Position numbers and translations under genes: made by a program. The notes beneath the pieces are model-generated. The model did not search any database, was not told the origin of the DNA, and worked only from the letters and a program-made list of their open reading frames with translations. This document shows positions 1 through 27,029 of a stretch of 32,924 bases of DNA, one piece after another; within the stretch, counting starts at the first letter, position 1; each line of letters starts with the position of its first letter. This DNA comes from Acidimicrobiales bacterium (GTDB taxonomy: Bacteria > Actinomycetota > Acidimicrobiia > Acidimicrobiales > DASWMK01): the NCBI GenBank assembly GCA_036399815.1, contig DASWMK010000053.1, forward strand, positions 1 through 32,924. Direction: 5' to 3'.

Positions 1-1162
1 GGGCCCTCGCCGCCTCGGCCGCCGTCACGCCCCTCGCCGCCGCGTCGACCGCGATCTGCGCGGCGACGAACGGGGCCGCGAACGACGTGCCGCCCCAGGT
101 CGCGGACCCGGAGGCGAACTGGCCGGCGTCGCCACCGGCGAGGGTCGGGAGGTCCGTCTTCGTCGGCACCGCGAACGGCCCGGCGACGTCCACGCCCGGC
201 GCGTACAGGTCGACCCAGTCGCCGAAGTTGGACCCCCAGTGGTCGAACGGCGGCTGGCAGTCGGTGTGGACGCGGGCCGGCCGGCCGTCCGGGCCGGTGG
301 CGCCCACGGCGACGACCGCCTTGGCGGCCGCCGGCCAGGTCGGGACGTCGACGCCGTCGTTGCCGGCGGCCGCCACGACCGCCGTCTTCGGGCTCAGCTC
401 GAGGAGCCGGGCGACGGCGCGCTCGACGGCCAGCGTGCCGAGGTTCCGGTGGCTGTAGGAGCCCCAGGACAGGTTCACGACGTCGGGGCCGGCGCCCGCC
501 AGCGCGGCGATCTGGAGCGCCACCTCGTCGGCCTTCGCCATCGAGTGCCGGAGGCGCAGCCGCTCGACGACGATCGTGGCGCCGGGTGCGTGGGCGTGCA
601 CGACGCCGGCGGCGAAGGTCCCGTGGCCCCACAGCGGCGACAGGTACGGGCCGTTCGCCGTGGTGACGGCCTCGCGCTCCTCGGGGTCGCTGCGGGCGTC
701 CACCGAGTCGCCGAACCAGGGCTGGTGCTGGATGCCGGTGTCCAGGACGACGACGAGCTGGCCGGCGCCCCTCGACCGGTCGGGGTCGATCGGGGCGGGC
801 TCGGACCGCGCGGTCGCGAGGCACCCGGGCCAGACGTGGATGTGCGACATGGCGTAGAGGTAGTGGTTCAGCCGCACCGTGATCGTCGGGCTGACGTCGT
901 CCACGATCTCGTCCACCACGTCGTGGAGCGGCGGCCCGCCCGCCGGGGGGCGCTCGACGAGGACCTTCTCGACGCCGAGGTCGGGCAGCGGGGTCACGTC
1001 CTGGACCCTGAGGCCGCGCGCCTCGAGCTCCTGCCTGGTCCGCTCGAGGTCCTCGGTGGTGGTGAGCACCTCGTCCTCGGCGTACCAGATCTCGAGTCCG
1101 CTGGTGTGGTGCTCGACCGCGCTGGCGGGCAGGGGAAACCCGTACTCGTCGTAGATCGTCAT
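1..1162 (-). CDS. S8 family subtilisin-like serine peptidase (3' end outside window)
   Basis: Reads into the left edge; 387 codons are visible. The subtilase triad is intact: Asp141 in VVVLDTGIQ, His180 in WGHGTFAAG and Ser360 in GGTSFAAP, with the oxyanion Asn268 in AAAGNDG. About 125 N-terminal residues precede the catalytic domain; they could be a prodomain or a regulatory region. There is no hydrophobic signal peptide, so the enzyme is probably cytoplasmic, unlike most secreted subtilases. The ATG has a textbook ribosome site, AAGGAGG, about 5 nt upstream. It is divergent from the TPR-CHAT protease gene across 65 bp, so the two could be co-regulated. What follows the catalytic domain is unknown because the gene is cut. 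Confidence 0.93.
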   Translation of the reverse strand, partial: MTIYDEYGFPLPASAVEHHTSGLEIWYAEDEVLTTTEDLERTRQELEARGLRVQDVTPLPDLGVEKVLVERPPAGGPPLHDVVDEIVDDVSPTITVRLNHYLYAMSHIHVWPGCLATARSEPAPIDPDRSRGAGQLVVVLDTGIQHQPWFGDSVDARSDPEEREAVTTANGPYLSPLWGHGTFAAGVVHAHAPGATIVVERLRLRHSMAKADEVALQIAALAGAGPDVVNLSWGSYSHRNLGTLAVERAVARLLELSPKTAVVAAAGNDGVDVPTWPAAAKAVVAVGATGPDGRPARVHTDCQPPFDHWGSNFGDWVDLYAPGVDVAGPFAVPTKTDLPTLAGGDAGQFASGSATWGGTSFAAPFVAAQIAVDAAARGVTAAEAARA

Positions 1163-1214
1163 GAGTCCCTCCTTCTGCTGACCGACGGACGGCGCACGCG
1201 GCACGGCGGATACC

Positions 1215-1220
1215 TAGGAT
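1215..1220 (+). promoter_or_regulatory. Putative -10 hexamer TAGGAT for the CHAT gene
   Basis: TAGGAT ends 7 nt before the GTG start at 1228, with no Shine-Dalgarno sequence. This is consistent with a leaderless transcript. The overlapping CCTAGG core could also serve the divergent subtilase gene. Confidence 0.5.
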
Positions 1221-1227
1221 TCGCCGC

Positions 1228-3849
1228 GTGGCGGGCGGCGGGTCCCTCGGGAAGGCGGAGCGGGCCAAGGACCTCGTGCGGGCCGACCCGGGCAGGGCCG
1301 AGGCGCTCGCCGCCGAGGCCCTCGCCGAGGCGGGCGACGACCTGCGGGCCGTCGCCGTGGCCCGGCGGGTGCTCGGCATGACGGCGCGGGAGGACCAGCG
1401 CTTCGAGGACGCCGAGGCCCACCTGCTGGCCGCCGTCGACGCCGCCGAGGGCGCGGGTGCGAGGGCGCTCGCCGCCAGCTGCCGGATGAGCCTGGCGGGC
1501 GCGCTGCTGTTCCAGGGCCGCTACGGCGAGGCGCTGGCGCTGGTCGACGCGGCGATCCCCGCCCTGTCGGGCGTCGAGCGGGCGAGGGCCCGGTTCCAGC
1601 GGGCGGCGGTCCTCCAGGTGTCGGGGGACGAGGAGGCCGCGGCCAGGGCCTACGAGACGGCGGAGCGGGCGCTGCGCCGGGTGGGCGACCGGCTGACCCT
1701 CGCCCAGCTCTACAACAACCGGGGCCAGCTGCGGCTCGCCCAGGGGCGGGTGCGCCGGGCCGGCGACGACCTCCGGCGGGCCGAGTCCATCTACGACGAG
1801 CTCGGCCTCGGCAAGGCGAGGGCCGACGTGCGGGCCAACCTCGGCGTCGCCGCCGCCCGGGAGGGCGACCTCCTCGCCGCCCTGCGCTGGTACGAGCAGG
1901 CCGACGCCGAGCTCGCCGGCCTCGGCCGGGAGGACCCGCTCTCGCTGAAGGACCGGGTGCCGGCCCTGCTCGTGGCCGGCCTGAGCGACGAGGCGACGGA
2001 CACGGCGAGGCGGGCCGTCGAGCTGCTCGAGCCGAGGGGCAGGAGCACGTACCTGGCCGACGCCATGCTCGTCCAGGCCGAGGCCGAGCTGGCGGCCGGC
2101 GACGCGGCCGCGGCCGGCGAGCTCGGCCGGGCGGCGGCCGACCAGTTCGCCGACTTCGGCCACGCGCGGGCGACGGTCGACGCGCGGGCCGTCGCCACCC
2201 TCGCCGACCTCGCCGACGCCGGCGCCGCGGCCGCCGCCGGCCCCCGCGCCGTCGCCGCCGCCCGGGCCCTCGCCGGCGAGGCCGAGCAGGCCGGCCTGCC
2301 CCGCCGGGCCCTCGACCTCCACCTCGCCGCCGGCGAGGCCGCCGCGGCGCGGGGTGACGTGGCCGTGGCCGACCGCGAGCTCGCCATGGCGGCCGGCGGG
2401 CGGGCGAGCGGGCCGGTCGACCGGCGCCTGCGGGGATGGCGGGCCGAGGCCGGGCGGCGCCTGGCCGCCGGCGACCGGCGGGGCGCGCTGCGGGCGGCGT
2501 CGGCCGGGCTGGCCGTGCTCGACCGGTACCGGGACGCGCTCGGCGCCGTCGAGCTGCGGGCCGCCGTCGCCGCCCACGGGACCGAGCTCGCCGCCCTCGG
2601 CCTGCGGGTCGCCGTCGAGGACCACCGGCCGGCCGCCGTGCTCAGCTGGGCCGAGCGCCACCGGGCCGTGTGCCTCCAGCGGCCGCCCGTCCGCCCGCCC
2701 CACGACCCCGTCCTCGGCGCCCTGCTCGGGGAGCTGCGCACGGTGACGGCCGCGCTCGACGGGGCGGCGCGCGCCGGGCGGCGGGCCACCGAGCTCGACG
2801 CCCGCCGGCGCCGCCTCGAGGAGGCGGTCCGGCGCCGGGCCCTGCTGGCCCCGTCGGCCGGGGCGACGGCGGCCGCCGGCGTGCCGGTCGCCGACCTGGC
2901 CGCCCGCCTGGGCGACGGCGCCCTCGTCGAGTACCTCCGCCTCGGCGACCGCCTCGCCGCGCTGACGGTCGTGGACGGCGAGCTCGGCGTGTGCGAGCTG
3001 GGCGACGCCGGGCCGGTCGTGCGGGAGTGCCGGCTGCTGCGGTTCGCGCTCGGCCGGCTGGCGGGGCGGGACGCCGCCGAGGCGGCCGGGCGGACGTTCG
3101 CGGCCAACGCCGCCCACGCCGCGGCGGCCCTCGACGCCCGCCTGGTCGCCCCGCTGGCCGGCGCCGTCGGCGACCGCCCGATCGTCGTCGTCCCCACCGG
3201 CGACCTCCACGCCCTCCCGTGGGCGGCGCTGCCGTCGCTGCGGGGCCGGCCGGTCACGGTCGCGCCGTCGGCGACGGTGTGGGCGGCGGCCGTCGACCGG
3301 CCCGAGCCCCAGGGGCACCGCCTCCTCGTCGCCGGCCCCGACCTGCCCCACGCCGGCGAGGAGGTGTCGACCCTCCGCCGCGCCTGGCCCGGGGCCCGCA
3401 CCCTGACCGGTCGCCGGGCCACCGTCGCCGCCGTGCTCACCGGGCTCGACGGCGCCTCGGTGGCCCACGTCGCCGCCCACGGCCACGTCCGGGCCGACCA
3501 GCCGCTGCTGTCCTCCCTGCGCCTGGTCGACGGCCGGCTGACCGTCTACGACCTCGACCGCCTCGAGCGCCCGCCCGGGCTGCTCGTGCTGTCGGCCTGC
3601 GACACGGGGCTCTCGGCCGTGCGCCCGGGCGACGAGCTGATGGGGTTCGTCGCCGCCCTCCTCGCCCTCGGCACCCGGACCGTCGTGGCCGCCACCGGCC
3701 CGCTCCCCGACGACGCGGCGGCGCCGTTCATGGCCGCCGTCCACCGCCGCCGCGACGCCGGCCGGTCGGCGGCCGAGGCGGTGGCCGAGGCCCAGGCCGA
3801 GTGCGACGAGCCGGCGGCGGCGTTCGTCGTGCCGTTCGGTGCCGGCTGA
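1228..3849 (+). CDS. TPR-repeat CHAT-domain (caspase-like) protease, 873 aa
   Basis: The N-terminal half is a run of Ala/Leu/Arg-rich helical hairpins typical of tetratricopeptide repeats, roughly residues 10-330, followed by more helical repeats to about 550. The C-terminal third is a CHAT domain (caspase HetF associated with TPRs), with the putative dyad His751 in VAAHGHV and Cys791 in VLSACDTG, and the usual VVVPTGDLHALPW segment before it. CHAT proteins are cysteine peptidases related to caspases and separases; the TPR part normally senses a partner and controls the protease. The GTG start is favoured by the -10-like TAGGAT just upstream. It lies between a divergent subtilase and a convergent ECF sigma/partner pair. 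Substrate unknown. Confidence 0.92.
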   Translation: MAGGGSLGKAERAKDLVRADPGRAEALAAEALAEAGDDLRAVAVARRVLGMTAREDQRFEDAEAHLLAAVDAAEGAGARALAASCRMSLAGALLFQGRYGEALALVDAAIPALSGVERARARFQRAAVLQVSGDEEAAARAYETAERALRRVGDRLTLAQLYNNRGQLRLAQGRVRRAGDDLRRAESIYDELGLGKARADVRANLGVAAAREGDLLAALRWYEQADAELAGLGREDPLSLKDRVPALLVAGLSDEATDTARRAVELLEPRGRSTYLADAMLVQAEAELAAGDAAAAGELGRAAADQFADFGHARATVDARAVATLADLADAGAAAAAGPRAVAAARALAGEAEQAGLPRRALDLHLAAGEAAAARGDVAVADRELAMAAGGRASGPVDRRLRGWRAEAGRRLAAGDRRGALRAASAGLAVLDRYRDALGAVELRAAVAAHGTELAALGLRVAVEDHRPAAVLSWAERHRAVCLQRPPVRPPHDPVLGALLGELRTVTAALDGAARAGRRATELDARRRRLEEAVRRRALLAPSAGATAAAGVPVADLAARLGDGALVEYLRLGDRLAALTVVDGELGVCELGDAGPVVRECRLLRFALGRLAGRDAAEAAGRTFAANAAHAAAALDARLVAPLAGAVGDRPIVVVPTGDLHALPWAALPSLRGRPVTVAPSATVWAAAVDRPEPQGHRLLVAGPDLPHAGEEVSTLRRAWPGARTLTGRRATVAAVLTGLDGASVAHVAAHGHVRADQPLLSSLRLVDGRLTVYDLDRLERPPGLLVLSACDTGLSAVRPGDELMGFVAALLALGTRTVVAATGPLPDDAAAPFMAAVHRRRDAGRSAAEAVAEAQAECDEPAAAFVVPFGAG

Positions 3850-3867
3850 GCGGCGCCGGCCGGCGGG

Positions 3868-4311
3868 CTAGACCCGCACCCAGTCGGTGACGACCGGCGA
3901 GCCGCCCTCGGGGGCCAGCCGGAGCCGGACCAGCCCCGTCCGCACGCCGGTGAGCACGAAGCGGCCGAGCCCGTCGACCTCGGCCGACGCCGAGCCGCCC
4001 GGCCACTCGCCGGCCACCGTCCCGGCCGCCGCCGGCACGACCTGCCCGGTCAGGGTCGCCGTCCGGCCGGCGGCGGCCACCTCGACGAGCACCTCGCCGG
4101 CGCCGGCCCGGAACGTGAGCTGGCGGCCGCCGCCCCGGACGCCGGCCCGCTCACCCGACTCGACGTCGGCGACGAGGTCGGCGACCTCCTGCCCGGCGGC
4201 CCGCCAGGCCCAGGTGGCCGCGGCCGCGTCGAGGACGTCGGGCGGCACGGGGTCCACGGCGCGCAGCATGGCGACCACGTCCTCCTCGGACGGCCAGCCG
4301 TCGTCGTTCAC
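3868..4311 (-). CDS. Small ECF-sigma-associated protein of unknown function, 147 aa
   Basis: Starts at a GTG preceded by GGGAGG, 13 nt after the sigma factor stop, so it is almost certainly co-transcribed and translated with the sigma gene. The N-terminal 45 residues are a helical, acidic stretch (EEDVVAMLRAVDPVPPDVL, then a Trp-containing helix). The C-terminal 90 residues are beta-rich, with GRFVLTGVRTGLVRLRL, resembling a small Ig-like or carboxypeptidase-regulatory-like sandwich. No membrane segment, signal peptide or zinc-binding HxxxCxxC motif is seen. From memory, proteins of this look often follow actinobacterial ECF sigma genes. A role as sigma partner, anti-sigma factor or protease substrate is inference. 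Confidence 0.8.
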   Translation of the reverse strand: MNDDGWPSEEDVVAMLRAVDPVPPDVLDAAAATWAWRAAGQEVADLVADVESGERAGVRGGGRQLTFRAGAGEVLVEVAAAGRTATLTGQVVPAAAGTVAGEWPGGSASAEVDGLGRFVLTGVRTGLVRLRLAPEGGSPVVTDWVRV

Positions 4312-4324
4312 GGCGCCACCTCCC

Positions 4325-4897
4325 TCACCCACCGGAGCCTTCTCCGGACGCCGAGATACGCGCCACCTCCGGATGGGTGCGCAACTTCTCCATGCACCGT
4401 CGTCGCGTCGGCCCGAGCGAGCCCCTCGGGACCCCGAGCAGCCCGGCGATGTCGTCGTAGCTGAGCGGCGGCGTGACGGCGAGGAGGCGGAGCAGCTCCT
4501 GGCAGCGGCGGGGGAGGGAGGCGACGGCCGCCCACAGCGCCCGGCGGCGCTCGTCGGCGATCAGGGCGGCGTCGGGGGCGGGCGCGGGGCCGCCCCGGTC
4601 GTCGAGGTCGAGGCCGGCCGGCACGGTCCGCCGCTTGGTGCGCAGCAGCGACAGGCACTCGCGCTGGGTGGTCGTCTTCAGCCACCCGGCGATGGTGGCC
4701 GGGTCGTCGATCGTGTGGAGCCGGGTGGCGACCCGCAGCCACACGCCCTGGGACACGTCGGCGGCGTCGGCGTGGTCGAGCCCGAAGCTCCTCGCCACCC
4801 CCCACACCATCGGCGCGAACTCCTCGACGAGCTCGCAGAACGCCCCCTCGTCCTCGACGGCCGCCCGGACGAGGTCGGCCAGCGGCCGGCTCAGCAT
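4325..4897 (-). CDS. ECF-type RNA polymerase sigma-70 factor, 190 aa
   Basis: Two-domain sigma layout. Region 2 is at about residues 20-90 (FCELVEEFAPMVWGVARSFG, then DVSQGVWLRVATRL and the Trp-containing WLKTTTQRECLSLLR). An acidic/Pro linker follows, then region 4 at about 118-178 with the helix-turn-helix LSYDDIAGLLGVPRGSLGPT. It directs RNA polymerase to alternative promoters. The length is typical of ECF factors. The ATG start lies 16 nt after the stop of the PdxH-like gene, so the three minus-strand genes probably form an operon. There is no SnoaL-type C-terminal extension and no classical zinc anti-sigma gene nearby; the small downstream protein is the only candidate partner. Confidence 0.93.
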   Translation of the reverse strand: MLSRPLADLVRAAVEDEGAFCELVEEFAPMVWGVARSFGLDHADAADVSQGVWLRVATRLHTIDDPATIAGWLKTTTQRECLSLLRTKRRTVPAGLDLDDRGGPAPAPDAALIADERRRALWAAVASLPRRCQELLRLLAVTPPLSYDDIAGLLGVPRGSLGPTRRRCMEKLRTHPEVARISASGEGSGG

Positions 4898-4913: not shown

Positions 4914-5510
4914 TCACGGGGCGACGCGGGTGACCGACCATCCTCCGCCTGCCGCCCGCCGGAACCTGACCCGGTCGTGGACGTGGTCGTCCCGGCCCTC
5001 CCACAGCTCGACCACCTCCGGCACCAGCCGGTAGCCGCCCCAGTCGGGCGGTCGGGGCAGCGGGCCGTCGCCGAAGCGCTCGCCCAGCTCGGCCACCCGG
5101 GCGAGGACGGCGTCCCGCCCGGCGACCGCCGAGTGCCCGTCGGAGGCCCACAGCACCACCTGCACCGCCCGGGGGAGGCCGGCGAAGCGCTCGTCGCACT
5201 CGCCGTCGGGCAGCCGCTCGACGGTGCCCTCGACCCGCACCTGGCGGTCCTGGCCGAGGAACCCGAAGCACAGCGCGGCCGACGGGTTGGCGGCCAGGTC
5301 GGCGGCCTTGCGGGTGCGGTGGTCGGTGAAGAACACGAACCCGTGGTCGACCTGGACCACGTTGACGTAGCGGGCCGACGGCCGCCCGTCCCGGCCGGCG
5401 GTGGCGAGGACGGCGGCGGCCGGGTCCGGCGCGCCCGTCGCCACCCACGACTCGTGCCACGAGCGGAACCGCGCCAGCGGGTCGTCGACCCCTTCCTCCA
5501 GCTCCCCCAC
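4914..5510 (-). CDS. pdxH: Pyridoxamine/pyridoxine 5'-phosphate oxidase-like flavoprotein
   Basis: About 198 aa with the order of motifs of PdxH: ARYVNVVQVDHGFVFFTDHRTRKAADLAANP, then RQVRVEGTVERL, then WGGYRLVPEVVELW, ending WSVTRVAP. PdxH is an FMN enzyme that oxidises pyridoxamine or pyridoxine phosphate to PLP. The usual RLHDR active-site block reads HVHDR here, so the Arg that contacts the substrate is His, which could shift specificity. Two adjacent in-frame GTGs exist (5516 and 5510). I chose 5510 because TACGGT sits 6 nt upstream of it, matching other genes here. It leads the run into the ECF sigma gene. The symbol is tentative. Confidence 0.82.
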   Translation of the reverse strand: MGELEEGVDDPLARFRSWHESWVATGAPDPAAAVLATAGRDGRPSARYVNVVQVDHGFVFFTDHRTRKAADLAANPSAALCFGFLGQDRQVRVEGTVERLPDGECDERFAGLPRAVQVVLWASDGHSAVAGRDAVLARVAELGERFGDGPLPRPPDWGGYRLVPEVVELWEGRDDHVHDRVRFRRAAGGGWSVTRVAP

Positions 5511-5516
5511 GTCCAC

Positions 5517-5522
5517 ACCGTA
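5517..5522 (-). promoter_or_regulatory. Putative -10 hexamer TACGGT for the PdxH-like gene
   Basis: TACGGT on the minus strand, 6 nt before the GTG at 5510, with no Shine-Dalgarno sequence. It helps decide between two alternative starts. Confidence 0.4.
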
Positions 5523-5553
5523 TGCCCGGATCCGTAGGGCATCCGCCAGCCGG

Positions 5554-8808: not shown

Positions 8809-10428
8809 GTGGCCACCCACGAGGTCCTGAACCAGCCGCCGCCGCTCGAGGGCCACGACGTGTTCGGGGCGGACGAGGCCCTCGTGGAGGCGGTGGCGCG
8901 GGAGGGGGCGGGCTGGGCGCTCGACGACCTCCACGACCTCGGCCGGCTGGCCGGCTCGCCCGACGCCATCGAGTGGGGCGCGGCCGCCAACGCCAACCCC
9001 CCGGCCCTGCGCACCCACGACCGCTTCGGCCACCGCGTCGACGAGGTCGCCTACCACCCGGCCTACCACCGCCTGATGGAGGTGGCCGTCGGCCGCGGGC
9101 TGCACACCGGGCCGTGGTCCGACCCCCGGCCGGGCGCCCACGTGGCCAGGGCCGCCGGCTTCGTCGTCTGGAGCCAGGTCGACGCCGGCCACTTCTGCCC
9201 CGTGTCCATGACCTACGCGGTCGTGCCCGCCCTGCGCGCCCACCCGGGGCTGGCGGCCGAGTGGGAGCCCCGCTTCGCGTCCCGCACCTACGACCCGTCG
9301 TCCCGCCCGGCCGCGGCCAAGGCCGGGGCGCTCGCCGGCATGGCCATGACCGAGAAGCAGGGCGGGTCCGACGTGCGGGCCAACACCACGCGGGCCGAGC
9401 CGGCCGGCGGCGACGGCGAGGTGGCGCTCACCGGCCACAAGTGGTTCTGCTCGGCGCCCATGTCCGACGCCTTCCTCGTGCTGGCCCAGGCGCCCGGCGG
9501 GCTCTCGTGCTACCTCGTGCCCCGGTGGCGGCCGGACGGGACGCGCAACGCCGTGCACCTCCAGCGCCTGAAGGACAAGCTCGGCAACCGGTCCAACGCC
9601 TCGTCGGAGATCGAGCTCGACCGGGCCTGGGGCCGCCTCGTCGGGGAGGAGGGCCGGGGGGTGGCGACGATCATCGCCATGGTCAACGCCACCCGGCTGG
9701 ACTGCGTGCTCGGGGCGACCGCCGGGATGCGCCAGGCCGTCGCCCAGGCCACCCACCACGCCGCCCACCGGCGGGCCTTCGGCCGGGAGCTGGTCGACCA
9801 GCCGCTGATGGCGAACGTGCTCGCCGACCTGGCCGTCGAGGCCGAGGCGGCCACCGTGCTCGCCCTCCGCCTGGCCCGGGCCTGCGACGCCGGCGAGGGG
9901 CCGTTCCGCCGGCTGGCCACCGCCGTCGGCAAGTACTGGGTGTGCAAGCGCCACCCGGCGCTCGTCGCCGAGGCCCTGGAGTGCCTGGGCGGCAACGGCT
10001 ACGTCGAGGAGTCGATCCTGCCCCGGCTGTTCAGGGAGAGCCCGCTGAACGGCATCTGGGAGGGCTCGGGCAACGTCATGTGCCTGGACGTGCTGCGGGC
10101 CATGGCGAAGGAGCCGGCCGCGCTGGCCGCCTTCCGGGAGGAGGTGGCGCTGGCCGCCGGCGCCGACCGCCGCCTCGACGCCGCCGTCGCCGCGCTCGAC
10201 GCCGACCTGGCCGACCTCGACGGCATCGAGGCGAGGGCCCGCCGGGTGGTGGAGCGCATGGCGCTCGTGCTCGGCGGGTCGCTGCTCATCCGCCACGGCC
10301 ACCCGGCGGTGGCCGACGCGTTCTGCGCCTCCCGGCTGGGCGGCGACTGGGGCCGGGCCTTCGGCACCCTGCCCCGCGGCGTGCCCTTCGGCACCCTGGT
10401 CGACCGGGCCCGCCCGAAGGTGGGCTGA
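8809..10428 (+). CDS. aidB: AidB-type acyl-CoA dehydrogenase-fold flavoprotein, 539 aa
   Basis: Long acyl-CoA dehydrogenase-family protein with the AidB hallmarks: MAMTEKQGGSDVRANTT at 178-194, HKWFCSAPMSDAFLVLA, LKDKLGNRSNASSEIE, CLGGNGYVEESILPRLFRES followed by PLNGIWEGSGNVMCLDVLRA. AidB belongs to the adaptive response to alkylation; it binds FAD and DNA and may detoxify alkylating agents. The length matches E. coli AidB. No ada or alkB gene is next to it. It begins 10 nt after the split-barrel gene, so it may share the WYL-controlled transcript in addition to its own putative promoter. Confidence 0.9.
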   Translation: MATHEVLNQPPPLEGHDVFGADEALVEAVAREGAGWALDDLHDLGRLAGSPDAIEWGAAANANPPALRTHDRFGHRVDEVAYHPAYHRLMEVAVGRGLHTGPWSDPRPGAHVARAAGFVVWSQVDAGHFCPVSMTYAVVPALRAHPGLAAEWEPRFASRTYDPSSRPAAAKAGALAGMAMTEKQGGSDVRANTTRAEPAGGDGEVALTGHKWFCSAPMSDAFLVLAQAPGGLSCYLVPRWRPDGTRNAVHLQRLKDKLGNRSNASSEIELDRAWGRLVGEEGRGVATIIAMVNATRLDCVLGATAGMRQAVAQATHHAAHRRAFGRELVDQPLMANVLADLAVEAEAATVLALRLARACDAGEGPFRRLATAVGKYWVCKRHPALVAEALECLGGNGYVEESILPRLFRESPLNGIWEGSGNVMCLDVLRAMAKEPAALAAFREEVALAAGADRRLDAAVAALDADLADLDGIEARARRVVERMALVLGGSLLIRHGHPAVADAFCASRLGGDWGRAFGTLPRGVPFGTLVDRARPKVG

Positions 10429-12242: not shown

Positions 12243-13822
12243 GGTCGGTCCCCGGCACGGCGCGGGGCCGCAACGAGCTGGCCTCGCTGGCCTGGCGGCT
12301 GGGGTCGCTCCAGCTGACCCGGCTCGTGATGGCCGCCCTCGCCGTCGCCGCCGCCGCCAGCCTGCCCGGCTACGTCCCGTCCACCCGGCCGGTCGTCGTC
12401 ACGTCGCTGGCGTTCGCGCTGCTCACCTCGGTGCTGGAGGCCGTGCGCCGCCGCTACCGGGTCCGCAGCCTGGCCCTGCTGTCGTCGACCCTGCTCCTCG
12501 ACGGCGTGTGGGTGGCCGTCGTGCTGTCCGGCGGCGGCGGCCTGTTCGGCCCGCTCGGCGTGCTCGTCCACCTCCACGTCGTCGCCGTGACCGTGCTGCT
12601 CTCGTGGCGCACCGGGCTGAAGGTGGCGGTGTGGCACCTCCTCCTCCAGCTGGTGTCGGCCTACGACGGGTTCGAGTGGCTGAACGCCGGCTCCGGCGAC
12701 GAGCGGTCGCTGGCCTTCAGCGGGCTGGCCGTCGTGCTGCTGGCGGCGGCCGCCGCCTGGTATTCCGCGCTGAACGAGCAGGCCCTGCGGCGGGGCAAGG
12801 CCGAGCTCGCCGCGCTCGTCGCCCTCACCGAGTCGCTCGAGGTGGCCGACACGGCCGGCGACATCCGGGCCGCGCTGCTCCGCCACGTGACCGAGCGGCT
12901 GGGCTTCCGGCGGGCCGCGCTGGTCGACCACACGGCCGCCGGCGCGGCCGGCGCCGTCGTGGACCGCCGGACCAGCGTGCTGTTCGAGTCGGCCGTGCCC
13001 ATCCCGCCGCCCGCGCTCCGCCACCCGTCCGAGGCCGGCGTGCGGACCGGGACGAGAGGCGTGCGCCTCGTCCGCACCCTCGACCCCGACGCCGCGTCCG
13101 ACCGGCTGGCCGACGCCCTGTTGCCGGCGGCGACCAACGTCGTCGTCGTGCCCCTGACCGTCGAGGGCCAGCTCGTCGCCACCCTGTACGCCGAGTGGGG
13201 CGGCCACCGCCGCCGGGTGGCGGCCCAGACCGTCGCCGTCCTCGTGCAGTCGTGCACCCACGCCGCCCAGTCGCTGCGCAGCGAGCGGCTGCGGTCCGAG
13301 GTCGAGTGGCTGGCGACCCGGGACCCGCTCACCGGCGTCTACAACCGGGCCGTGTTCGACGAGCGCCTCACCGAGCTGGTGGCGTCGGCCCAGCGCACCG
13401 AGCGGCCGCTCAGCCTGATCGTGCTCGACGTCGACCACTTCAAGGCCGTCAACGACGGGTTCGGCCACCAGGCCGGCGACGGGGTGCTGCGGGTGGTCGG
13501 CGAGACCCTGATCGCCAACTCCCGCAACGACGACGTGGCCGCCCGCTTCGGCGGCGACGAGTTCGCCGTGCTCCTCCCCGGCGTCGCCGGGCCTACCGCC
13601 CTCGCCGTGGCCGAGCGCCTGCGGGCCTCGATCAGCCGGGACGTGCCCCTCGGCGGCATCACGGTCAGCGCCGGGGTGGCGACCCTGCCGAGGCGGGGCG
13701 GCTCGCCCCAGCAGCTGCTGGCCGCGGCCGACGTCGCCCTGTACCAGTCGAAGCGGGACGGCCGGGACCGGTCGAGCCGCTTCGAGGAGCCGCACGTCAC
13801 CCTGGCGCTCCCCGGCGCCTGA
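12239..13822 (+). CDS. Membrane-bound diguanylate cyclase (GGDEF), 527 aa
   Basis: Several membrane segments at about 25-175 form an N-terminal multi-pass domain. A short coiled region and a GAF-like domain at about 195-340 follow, then a GGDEF domain at about 360-515. The active loop is intact (GGDEF at 438-442), with RDPLTGVYNRAVFDERL and VLDVDHFKAVND. An RxxD inhibitory site (Arg429-Asp432) stands five residues before GGDEF, so product inhibition by cyclic-di-GMP is expected. No EAL domain. The start GTG overlaps the TGA of the secreted anchored protein, which suggests that the pair works as a surface sensor and its signalling output. Confidence 0.92.
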   Translation: MRSVPGTARGRNELASLAWRLGSLQLTRLVMAALAVAAAASLPGYVPSTRPVVVTSLAFALLTSVLEAVRRRYRVRSLALLSSTLLLDGVWVAVVLSGGGGLFGPLGVLVHLHVVAVTVLLSWRTGLKVAVWHLLLQLVSAYDGFEWLNAGSGDERSLAFSGLAVVLLAAAAAWYSALNEQALRRGKAELAALVALTESLEVADTAGDIRAALLRHVTERLGFRRAALVDHTAAGAAGAVVDRRTSVLFESAVPIPPPALRHPSEAGVRTGTRGVRLVRTLDPDAASDRLADALLPAATNVVVVPLTVEGQLVATLYAEWGGHRRRVAAQTVAVLVQSCTHAAQSLRSERLRSEVEWLATRDPLTGVYNRAVFDERLTELVASAQRTERPLSLIVLDVDHFKAVNDGFGHQAGDGVLRVVGETLIANSRNDDVAARFGGDEFAVLLPGVAGPTALAVAERLRASISRDVPLGGITVSAGVATLPRRGGSPQQLLAAADVALYQSKRDGRDRSSRFEEPHVTLALPGA

Positions 13823-13851
13823 CGACCCCGCCCGCCGGCGGCGGCTGACTC

Positions 13852-26759: not shown

Positions 26760-26801
26760 CGGCCACGGGTGGACGTCGGCCCGCTGCACCCGCCGGCGCC
26801 C

Positions 26802-27029
26802 GGGCGCCCGCCGGTGCCGCGGCCGTGTGCCGGCCGGTGACCGCCCGTGTGCTCGCCGGTGCGGCGGTCGCGTGCCGGCCGGTGACCCGCGGGTGTGCTC
26901 GCCGGTGCCGGGGTCGTGTGCCGGCCGGTGACCCGCCCGTGTGCTCGCCGGTGCCGGGGTCGTGTGCCGGTCGGTGCGGCGGCCATGTGCCGGCTGGTGC
27001 GGCGGCCATGCGCCCGGTGTGCGGCGACC
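26802..27029. repeat. About ten tandem copies of a 23-bp repeat
   Basis: Units start at 26802 (degenerate), 26825, 26847, 26870, 26893, 26916, 26939, 26962, 26985 and 27008; two are 22 bp (26825 and 27008), the others 23. Most open with (G/A)TGTGC and carry (G/T/C)CGGTG or a close variant at positions 9-15. Two subtypes alternate as 46-bp pairs from 26825 to 26961: one has CCGGCCGGTGACC, the other CTCGCCGGTGC and mostly ends CCGGGGTC. The last units end GCGGCGGCC or similar. The unit is not a multiple of three and no coding frame is convincing. It fills most of the 343-bp gap between convergent genes. Confidence 0.9.

Follow-up and report, generated by a model that had tools for sequence, protein, structure and literature searches.

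We consider the left end of a contig from an Acidimicrobiales bacterium, analysed as a single window of 32,924 nucleotides, where four genes stand together. The first, on the minus strand (2..1162), encodes an S8 subtilase (Pfam Peptidase_S8, E 6.7e-22). Its start is most plausibly the ATG at 1162, behind a GGAGG site, and its 3' end is missing because the edge of the contig, where the window ends too, lies inside the gene, leaving 387 codons. Divergent from it, with 65 bp between the two starts when ATG 1162 is taken, lies the plus-strand gene of an 873-residue TPR-CHAT protease (1228..3849, GTG start; Pfam CHAT E 7.7e-33, TPR_12 E 6e-9). Convergent with the TPR-CHAT gene are two minus-strand genes, that of an ECF54-like ECF sigma factor of 190 residues (4325..4897; TIGR02937 at 72 bits, against a cut-off of 42.9) and that of a 147-residue protein (3868..4311, GTG start at 4311), hereafter the partner, which we predict to be a soluble anti-sigma factor. 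Exactly 13 nt separate the sigma stop (4325) from the partner start (4311). A preliminary description of this DNA had listed the same four parts, and the Pfam and TIGRFAM matches together with the coordinates bear it out, down to the residue numbers and the length of this gap. A pyridoxamine 5'-phosphate oxidase gene (4914-5537, minus strand) ends about 17 nt upstream of the sigma start; given the common strand and the short distance, the sigma and partner genes may share a transcript with it. Farther along the window are an AidB-type acyl-CoA dehydrogenase gene (8809-10428), an open reading frame with a GGDEF diguanylate cyclase motif (12508-13848) and a stretch of degenerate, G+C-rich tandem repeats with a period of about 23 nt that is not CRISPR-like (26797-27014).

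The sigma factor contains the domains Sigma70_r2 (E 5e-12) and r4_2 (E 0.001), the motif GS(I/L)GPTRxRC is conserved among the sigma factors (29-row alignment), and the predicted model of a relative matches ECF sigma factors. The neighbourhood itself is not new. The passages on ECF54 in PMC8999054, which credit Huang et al. 2015 and Casas-Pastor et al. 2021, describe actinobacterial ECF sigma factors with conserved subtilase, CHAT and "carboxypeptidase" proteins, and these passages propose proteolytic control without an anti-sigma factor. The present cassette is this published neighbourhood, its sigma factor being called ECF54-like from its domains and gene context, and a relative from the Geodermatophilaceae (L119), the family of the ECF54 model organism, has all four genes. 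The "carboxypeptidase" is most likely the CarboxypepD_reg-like domain of the partner, a beta-sandwich and not a peptidase. In the literature searched we found no description of the partner as an inhibitor, of its probable cut site or of its promoter. A third ECF54-like sigma gene of the same genome (G000:C218:272-790, L169) stands at a contig start and contains one in-frame TGA; no partner, CHAT or subtilase gene was detected within its 2.3 kb of sequence.

How constant the four-gene set is can be seen from a search of one named genome for each of 84,980 species, in which the sigma alignment alone served as the query. Among the best 80 loci, a selection that favours close relatives, the partner gene is directly downstream of the sigma gene in at least 74, a CHAT gene is present in at least 64, an S8 gene in at least 53 and all three in at least 51, these counts being lower bounds because contig ends cut loci. 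A further collection of 46 loci, most of them retrieved with the partner as the query, shows the same gene set. Hence the four families do co-occur in other genomes (80 and 46 loci), and the similar neighbourhoods that the preliminary description mentioned for other actinobacteria are found across the phylum. Searching relatives from the same order with the partner adds loci from another six genomes; every one has sigma and CHAT genes, and most have a subtilase gene. The window's own genome has only two CHAT genes, and the other one belongs to a second, complete copy of the cassette; this, together with the recurrence across the phylum, places the set beyond chance. More than ten gene orders occur with a constant content, and the sigma gene keeps its place directly upstream of the partner gene on the same strand. 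A variable order with a constant content points to function, rather than to inheritance as a single block. In 114 sigma-partner pairs, most of the genes overlap or are less than 100 nt apart, a 4-nt ATGA overlap being the commonest arrangement. Where no CHAT gene adjoins the pair, a cassette-type CHAT gene is found elsewhere in seven of the eight such genomes. The partner family is present in 38 of 396 evenly sampled actinobacterial genomes and in 115 of 299 genomes of one order, so that, of the untested signalling units in the phylum, the cassette may be one of the more common.

Some loci depart from the standard layout. In tandem cassettes (L071, L073) the partner gene occurs two or three times alongside CHAT and subtilase genes, with a single sigma gene, as though a number of sensors converged on the same sigma factor. 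Solo partner genes without a nearby ECF54-like sigma gene are found at L048, L055, L060 and L068, and the neighbour at L060 is a different, SigJ-like sigma gene. Carriage on plasmids was considered and set aside, since the only match is a record of 11.85 Mb, which must be a chromosome.

Both proteases look active, as predicted from their intact catalytic residues. The dyad of the CHAT domain was correctly assigned in the preliminary description to His751 (codon at 3478) and Cys791 (codon at 3598), each of which is kept in 86 cassette relatives (86 or 87 aligned). In the cassette CHAT proteins an Asp is also conserved at position +37 from the catalytic Cys, and in the window this residue, D828, is a candidate S1 residue. 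In separases, an Asp in this region holds the P1 Arg, which we take as a lead only. In profile comparison with solved structures, the nearest is a "CHAT domain-containing protein" of 991 residues (8rot/8rw5, E 4.4e-15), and Csx29-type chains match at E 2e-13; alignment to Csx29 gives a Ser in the column of the Asp. The sole PADLOC match for the cassette is a generic CHAT match to BovA. In the subtilase, the triad D141/H180/S360 and the oxyanion residue N268 are intact and are kept in 80 to 81 of 81 relatives, and an N-terminal extension of about 135 residues precedes the catalytic domain. Between this extension and the catalytic domain, two related subtilases contain perfect repeats, (PGGTPY)n at L016 (8459-10021) and (PASFAH)n at L015 (12082-13578). 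The window's subtilase has no signal peptide, a hydrophobic N-terminus is absent in 81 of 83 subtilase relatives, and nearly all relatives of the subtilase and of the partner have neither a signal peptide nor a membrane segment. Both products should therefore be cytosolic.

We turn to the partner. In the window it consists of a short helical N-terminal part, a flexible linker and a C-terminal beta-sandwich, the last with a weak carboxypeptidase-regulatory-like match (E 0.03) and weak fold matches to CrdA (Z 9.7) and to adhesin domains (Z 8.6); a search of solved structures with the partner profile brings no meaningful match. A more telling comparison comes from family f57, a deep-branching, apparently Rubrobacter-like group with longer partners of about 205-220 residues. 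The N-terminal 80 residues of these proteins match zinc anti-sigma factors in a profile comparison (Prob 68.7, E 4.6e-5, 73 columns), the zinc anti-sigma profile having been built from the same genomes' own anti-sigma factors, and the sigma profile, taken as a control in the same comparison, gives nothing (Prob 0.6). Single sequences of the family have scattered matches, at best E 0.001 for zf-HC2 and E 0.008 for RskA_N. The long partners are homologous to the short ones (Prob 97.8, E 1e-12). Short partners of the window type keep the last helix of the anti-sigma-like domain and the remainder of the protein, lack the first two helices, and their own profile has no direct match to the anti-sigma factors (Prob 0.2). 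From the anti-sigma-like domain of the f57 proteins and their homology to the short partners, we infer that the family is a soluble anti-sigma factor or derives from one. The position directly downstream of an ECF sigma gene, as in the 114 pairs, fits the class I anti-sigma arrangement. The partner is predicted, with good confidence, to be a regulator that binds the sigma factor.

Neither structural models nor covariation speak clearly for or against a direct contact of the two proteins. For a read-through chain from L129, made up of sigma factor, 20-residue linker and partner, AlphaFold2 gives confident domains with a pTM of 0.64 at full length and 0.64 for a truncated chain, both below the level of a confident dock. 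The partner part has three helices (chain residues 224-273), then a linker of low confidence (276-281) and a sandwich of eight strands. In both models the sigma part superposes on the closed, anti-sigma-bound form of SigW-RsiW and CnrH-CnrY with an rmsd of 4-5 across some 155 residues. Against the form bound to RNA polymerase the rmsd rises to about 27. A sigma factor modelled on its own might show the same preference. In the truncated model the first helix of the partner aligns, together with sigma4, to FixJ and EL222, a hint only. Among the structure matches listed, which are dominated by sigma chains, no anti-sigma chain aligns to the partner helices. Covariation between sigma factor and partner (206 pairs, Neff 159) was rejected as a sign of contact: it is strong against global shuffling and vanishes when pairs are shuffled within clades of 50% identity, so that it reflects common descent.

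The linker of the partner has a feature of its own. One position is Arg in 197 of 206 partners and is followed by Gly, Ser or Ala in 197, with an entropy of 0.32 amid positions of 1.7-3.4, most neighbours having 2 to 3.4. In the L129 model this Arg is chain residue 280, within a segment with pLDDT below 50. An invariant Arg in a disordered and otherwise variable linker between two domains resembles a protease site. In the window the residue is Arg59 (codon at 4135..4137, minus strand), and the candidate cut falls between Arg and Gly of the sequence VRG. Clear losses of the Arg number five, four of them from loci without a CHAT gene in the available sequence; the fifth has a CHAT gene and yet a His in place of the Arg (L328). 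Three further apparent losses are probably alignment slips, with an Arg-Ser found three residues on. On this evidence we lean slightly towards the CHAT protein being the protease that cuts the partner, with Arg59 as the candidate site.

The regions upstream of the genes give a second line of evidence. The hexamer GTATCA is the most over-represented upstream of both the subtilase and the sigma genes. In the extended form GTATCA-N14-18-(C/G)TC it precedes 16 of 59 dereplicated S8 genes, where dinucleotide shuffles give 0.2, and 10 of 71 sigma genes, where they give 0.15; among 61 CHAT genes it precedes none. GTATCA stands before 15 sigma genes, 14 of which have no divergent subtilase or CHAT gene sharing the region. 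Four instances of the strict form are found across six genomes (6-10 Mb) from one genus, which we take to be Streptomyces-like, and each is upstream of a cassette S8 gene. An excess of GTATCA upstream of the partner genes was discarded, since it probably reflects the codons for a Ser-Tyr-Gln that is conserved in the sigma factor. In the window, the promoter-like element of the subtilase (1186..1213, minus strand) reads GTATCC (1213-1208), a 17-nt spacer and GTCCG (1190-1186); it is one base off the consensus, lies 51 to 24 nt before the subtilase ATG, and occupies the position of the recurrent element upstream of S8 genes. The second cassette copy of the same genome (L011) has GTATCT-N17-CTCGTCC. 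The predicted GTATCA promoter is probably used by the cassette sigma factor. With the element before the sigma and subtilase genes and none before the CHAT genes, the sigma factor is most simply taken to drive its own gene and that of the subtilase, the subtilase being an output and the CHAT protein a constant sensor. The preliminary description had let either protease cut the partner. Of the two, the CHAT protein is kept as the candidate cutter, and the subtilase is better read, from its promoter-like element, as a target of the sigma factor, both roles being possible.

Combining these pieces, a scheme for the cassette can be proposed. In the resting cell the 147-residue partner, as a soluble anti-sigma factor, would hold the ECF sigma factor. 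A signal, probably some protein that the TPR array binds, would activate the caspase-like CHAT domain, which would cut the partner linker after Arg59 and so part the sigma-binding helical part from the beta-sandwich. The remaining fragment would be unstable or non-inhibiting, and the sigma factor would be freed to act on promoters of the GTATCA type, transcribing both the subtilase gene and its own. The induced cytosolic subtilase might then amplify the response by degrading more partner, or might act as an effector that digests other proteins. We infer the binding, the cut, the cutting enzyme, the promoter use of the sigma factor, the role of the subtilase and the signal, and we give the whole chain, from the cut of the anti-sigma factor by the CHAT protein to the induction of the sigma factor and the subtilase, an even chance of being right.

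The published ECF54 passages (PMC8999054) suggest another scheme, in which the proteases degrade the sigma factor itself in unstressed cells and the small protein would be an adaptor or a chaperone. An intracellular subtilase encoded beside the sigma gene agrees with it, as does the lack of a direct anti-sigma profile match for partners of the window type. In the best 80 loci, however, the partner adjoins the sigma gene (at least 74) more constantly than do CHAT (at least 64) and S8 (at least 53), and it remains beside the sigma gene in loci that lack both proteases, the behaviour expected of an anti-sigma factor. The anti-sigma-like domain of the distant partners also speaks against degradation of the sigma factor, which we consider unlikely. 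The anti-sigma reading is favoured over it by that domain together with the linker Arg, the Asp of the CHAT protein and the promoter-like element.

Alternatively, the two enzymes could act in two steps, with the CHAT protein removing the N-terminal extension of the subtilase, the subtilase cutting the partner or the sigma factor, and the CHAT protein sparing the partner. The extension of about 135 residues could be a pro-domain, full catalytic sites are kept in both enzymes, and SAVED-CHAT is known to give immunity via a cascade of proteolytic activity (PMC11229360). The S8 gene is the least constant member, though, with at least 53 of the best 80 loci, and CHAT genes occur without it in well-covered loci such as L014 and L017, which indicates that the subtilase is not required for signalling everywhere. 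An Arg cut site is, moreover, unusual for subtilisin-type enzymes. We regard such a two-step order, too, as having only a small chance. Least probable of all, and in our view quite doubtful, is that the genes share a stress theme only, with a structural partner whose linker Arg binds the sigma factor or RNA polymerase: the weak sandwich matches to CarboxypepD_reg-like, CrdA and adhesin domains and the occurrence of solo partners would suit it, but it is opposed by the tight coupling of sigma factor and partner, the lack of a signal peptide or membrane segment in the partner, and a four-gene content that is constant across many orders.

The anti-sigma scheme, with its cut by the CHAT protein, can be compared with known systems. 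Like the ECF54 group described, the cassette encodes an actinobacterial ECF sigma factor with subtilase, CHAT and "carboxypeptidase" proteins; the published model does without an anti-sigma factor, whereas our reading includes one, and adds a candidate cut site in it and a promoter through which the sigma factor would regulate itself. If this is true, the missing anti-sigma factor of the ECF54 group would be supplied, together with a single-residue test (R59A). In CalpL-CalpT-CalpS a cytosolic protease cuts a soluble anti-sigma factor and an ECF sigma factor is freed (PMC11417357). The same step is proposed here, with the difference that CalpL-CalpT-CalpS uses a Lon protease, a SAVED sensor and a cA4 signal instead of TPR-CHAT and has no subtilase.

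With Craspase (Csx29, Csx30 and the CASP-sigma/RpoE factor) the cassette shares a TPR-CHAT protein, an ECF sigma factor and a protein between them. The cassette is not a Craspase: no RAMP protein (PF03787) is matched in the window's genome, which is 97% complete, and no CRISPR-like array is seen in the window, whereas RAMP/Cas7-11 and an array belong to Craspase. The preliminary description was right, on these grounds, to call the locus CRISPR-free. There are further differences, in that Csx30 has more than 500 residues and the partner 147, the cassette adds a subtilase, and Csx29 has a Ser where the cassette CHAT proteins have the Asp; Csx29 cuts Csx30 next to Met427 (PMC10028731). The Craspase-like logic put forward in the preliminary description gains from the co-occurrence of the genes, the Csx29 match, the anti-sigma-like domain of distant partners and the candidate Arg site, and stands in part, with the CHAT protein proposed to work in the manner of Craspase and of CalpL-CalpT-CalpS. 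A broader reading, which we offer tentatively, is that actinobacteria commonly have a CRISPR-free counterpart of Craspase, in which a caspase-like TPR-CHAT protein would respond to a signal by cutting a soluble anti-sigma factor at one conserved Arg, and the freed sigma factor would induce a second, cytosolic protease, possibly for phage defence or programmed cell death. Were this so, the logic of Craspase would exist independently of CRISPR, and the cassette would be a natural source of a caspase-like protease that is specific for Arg and has a short substrate.
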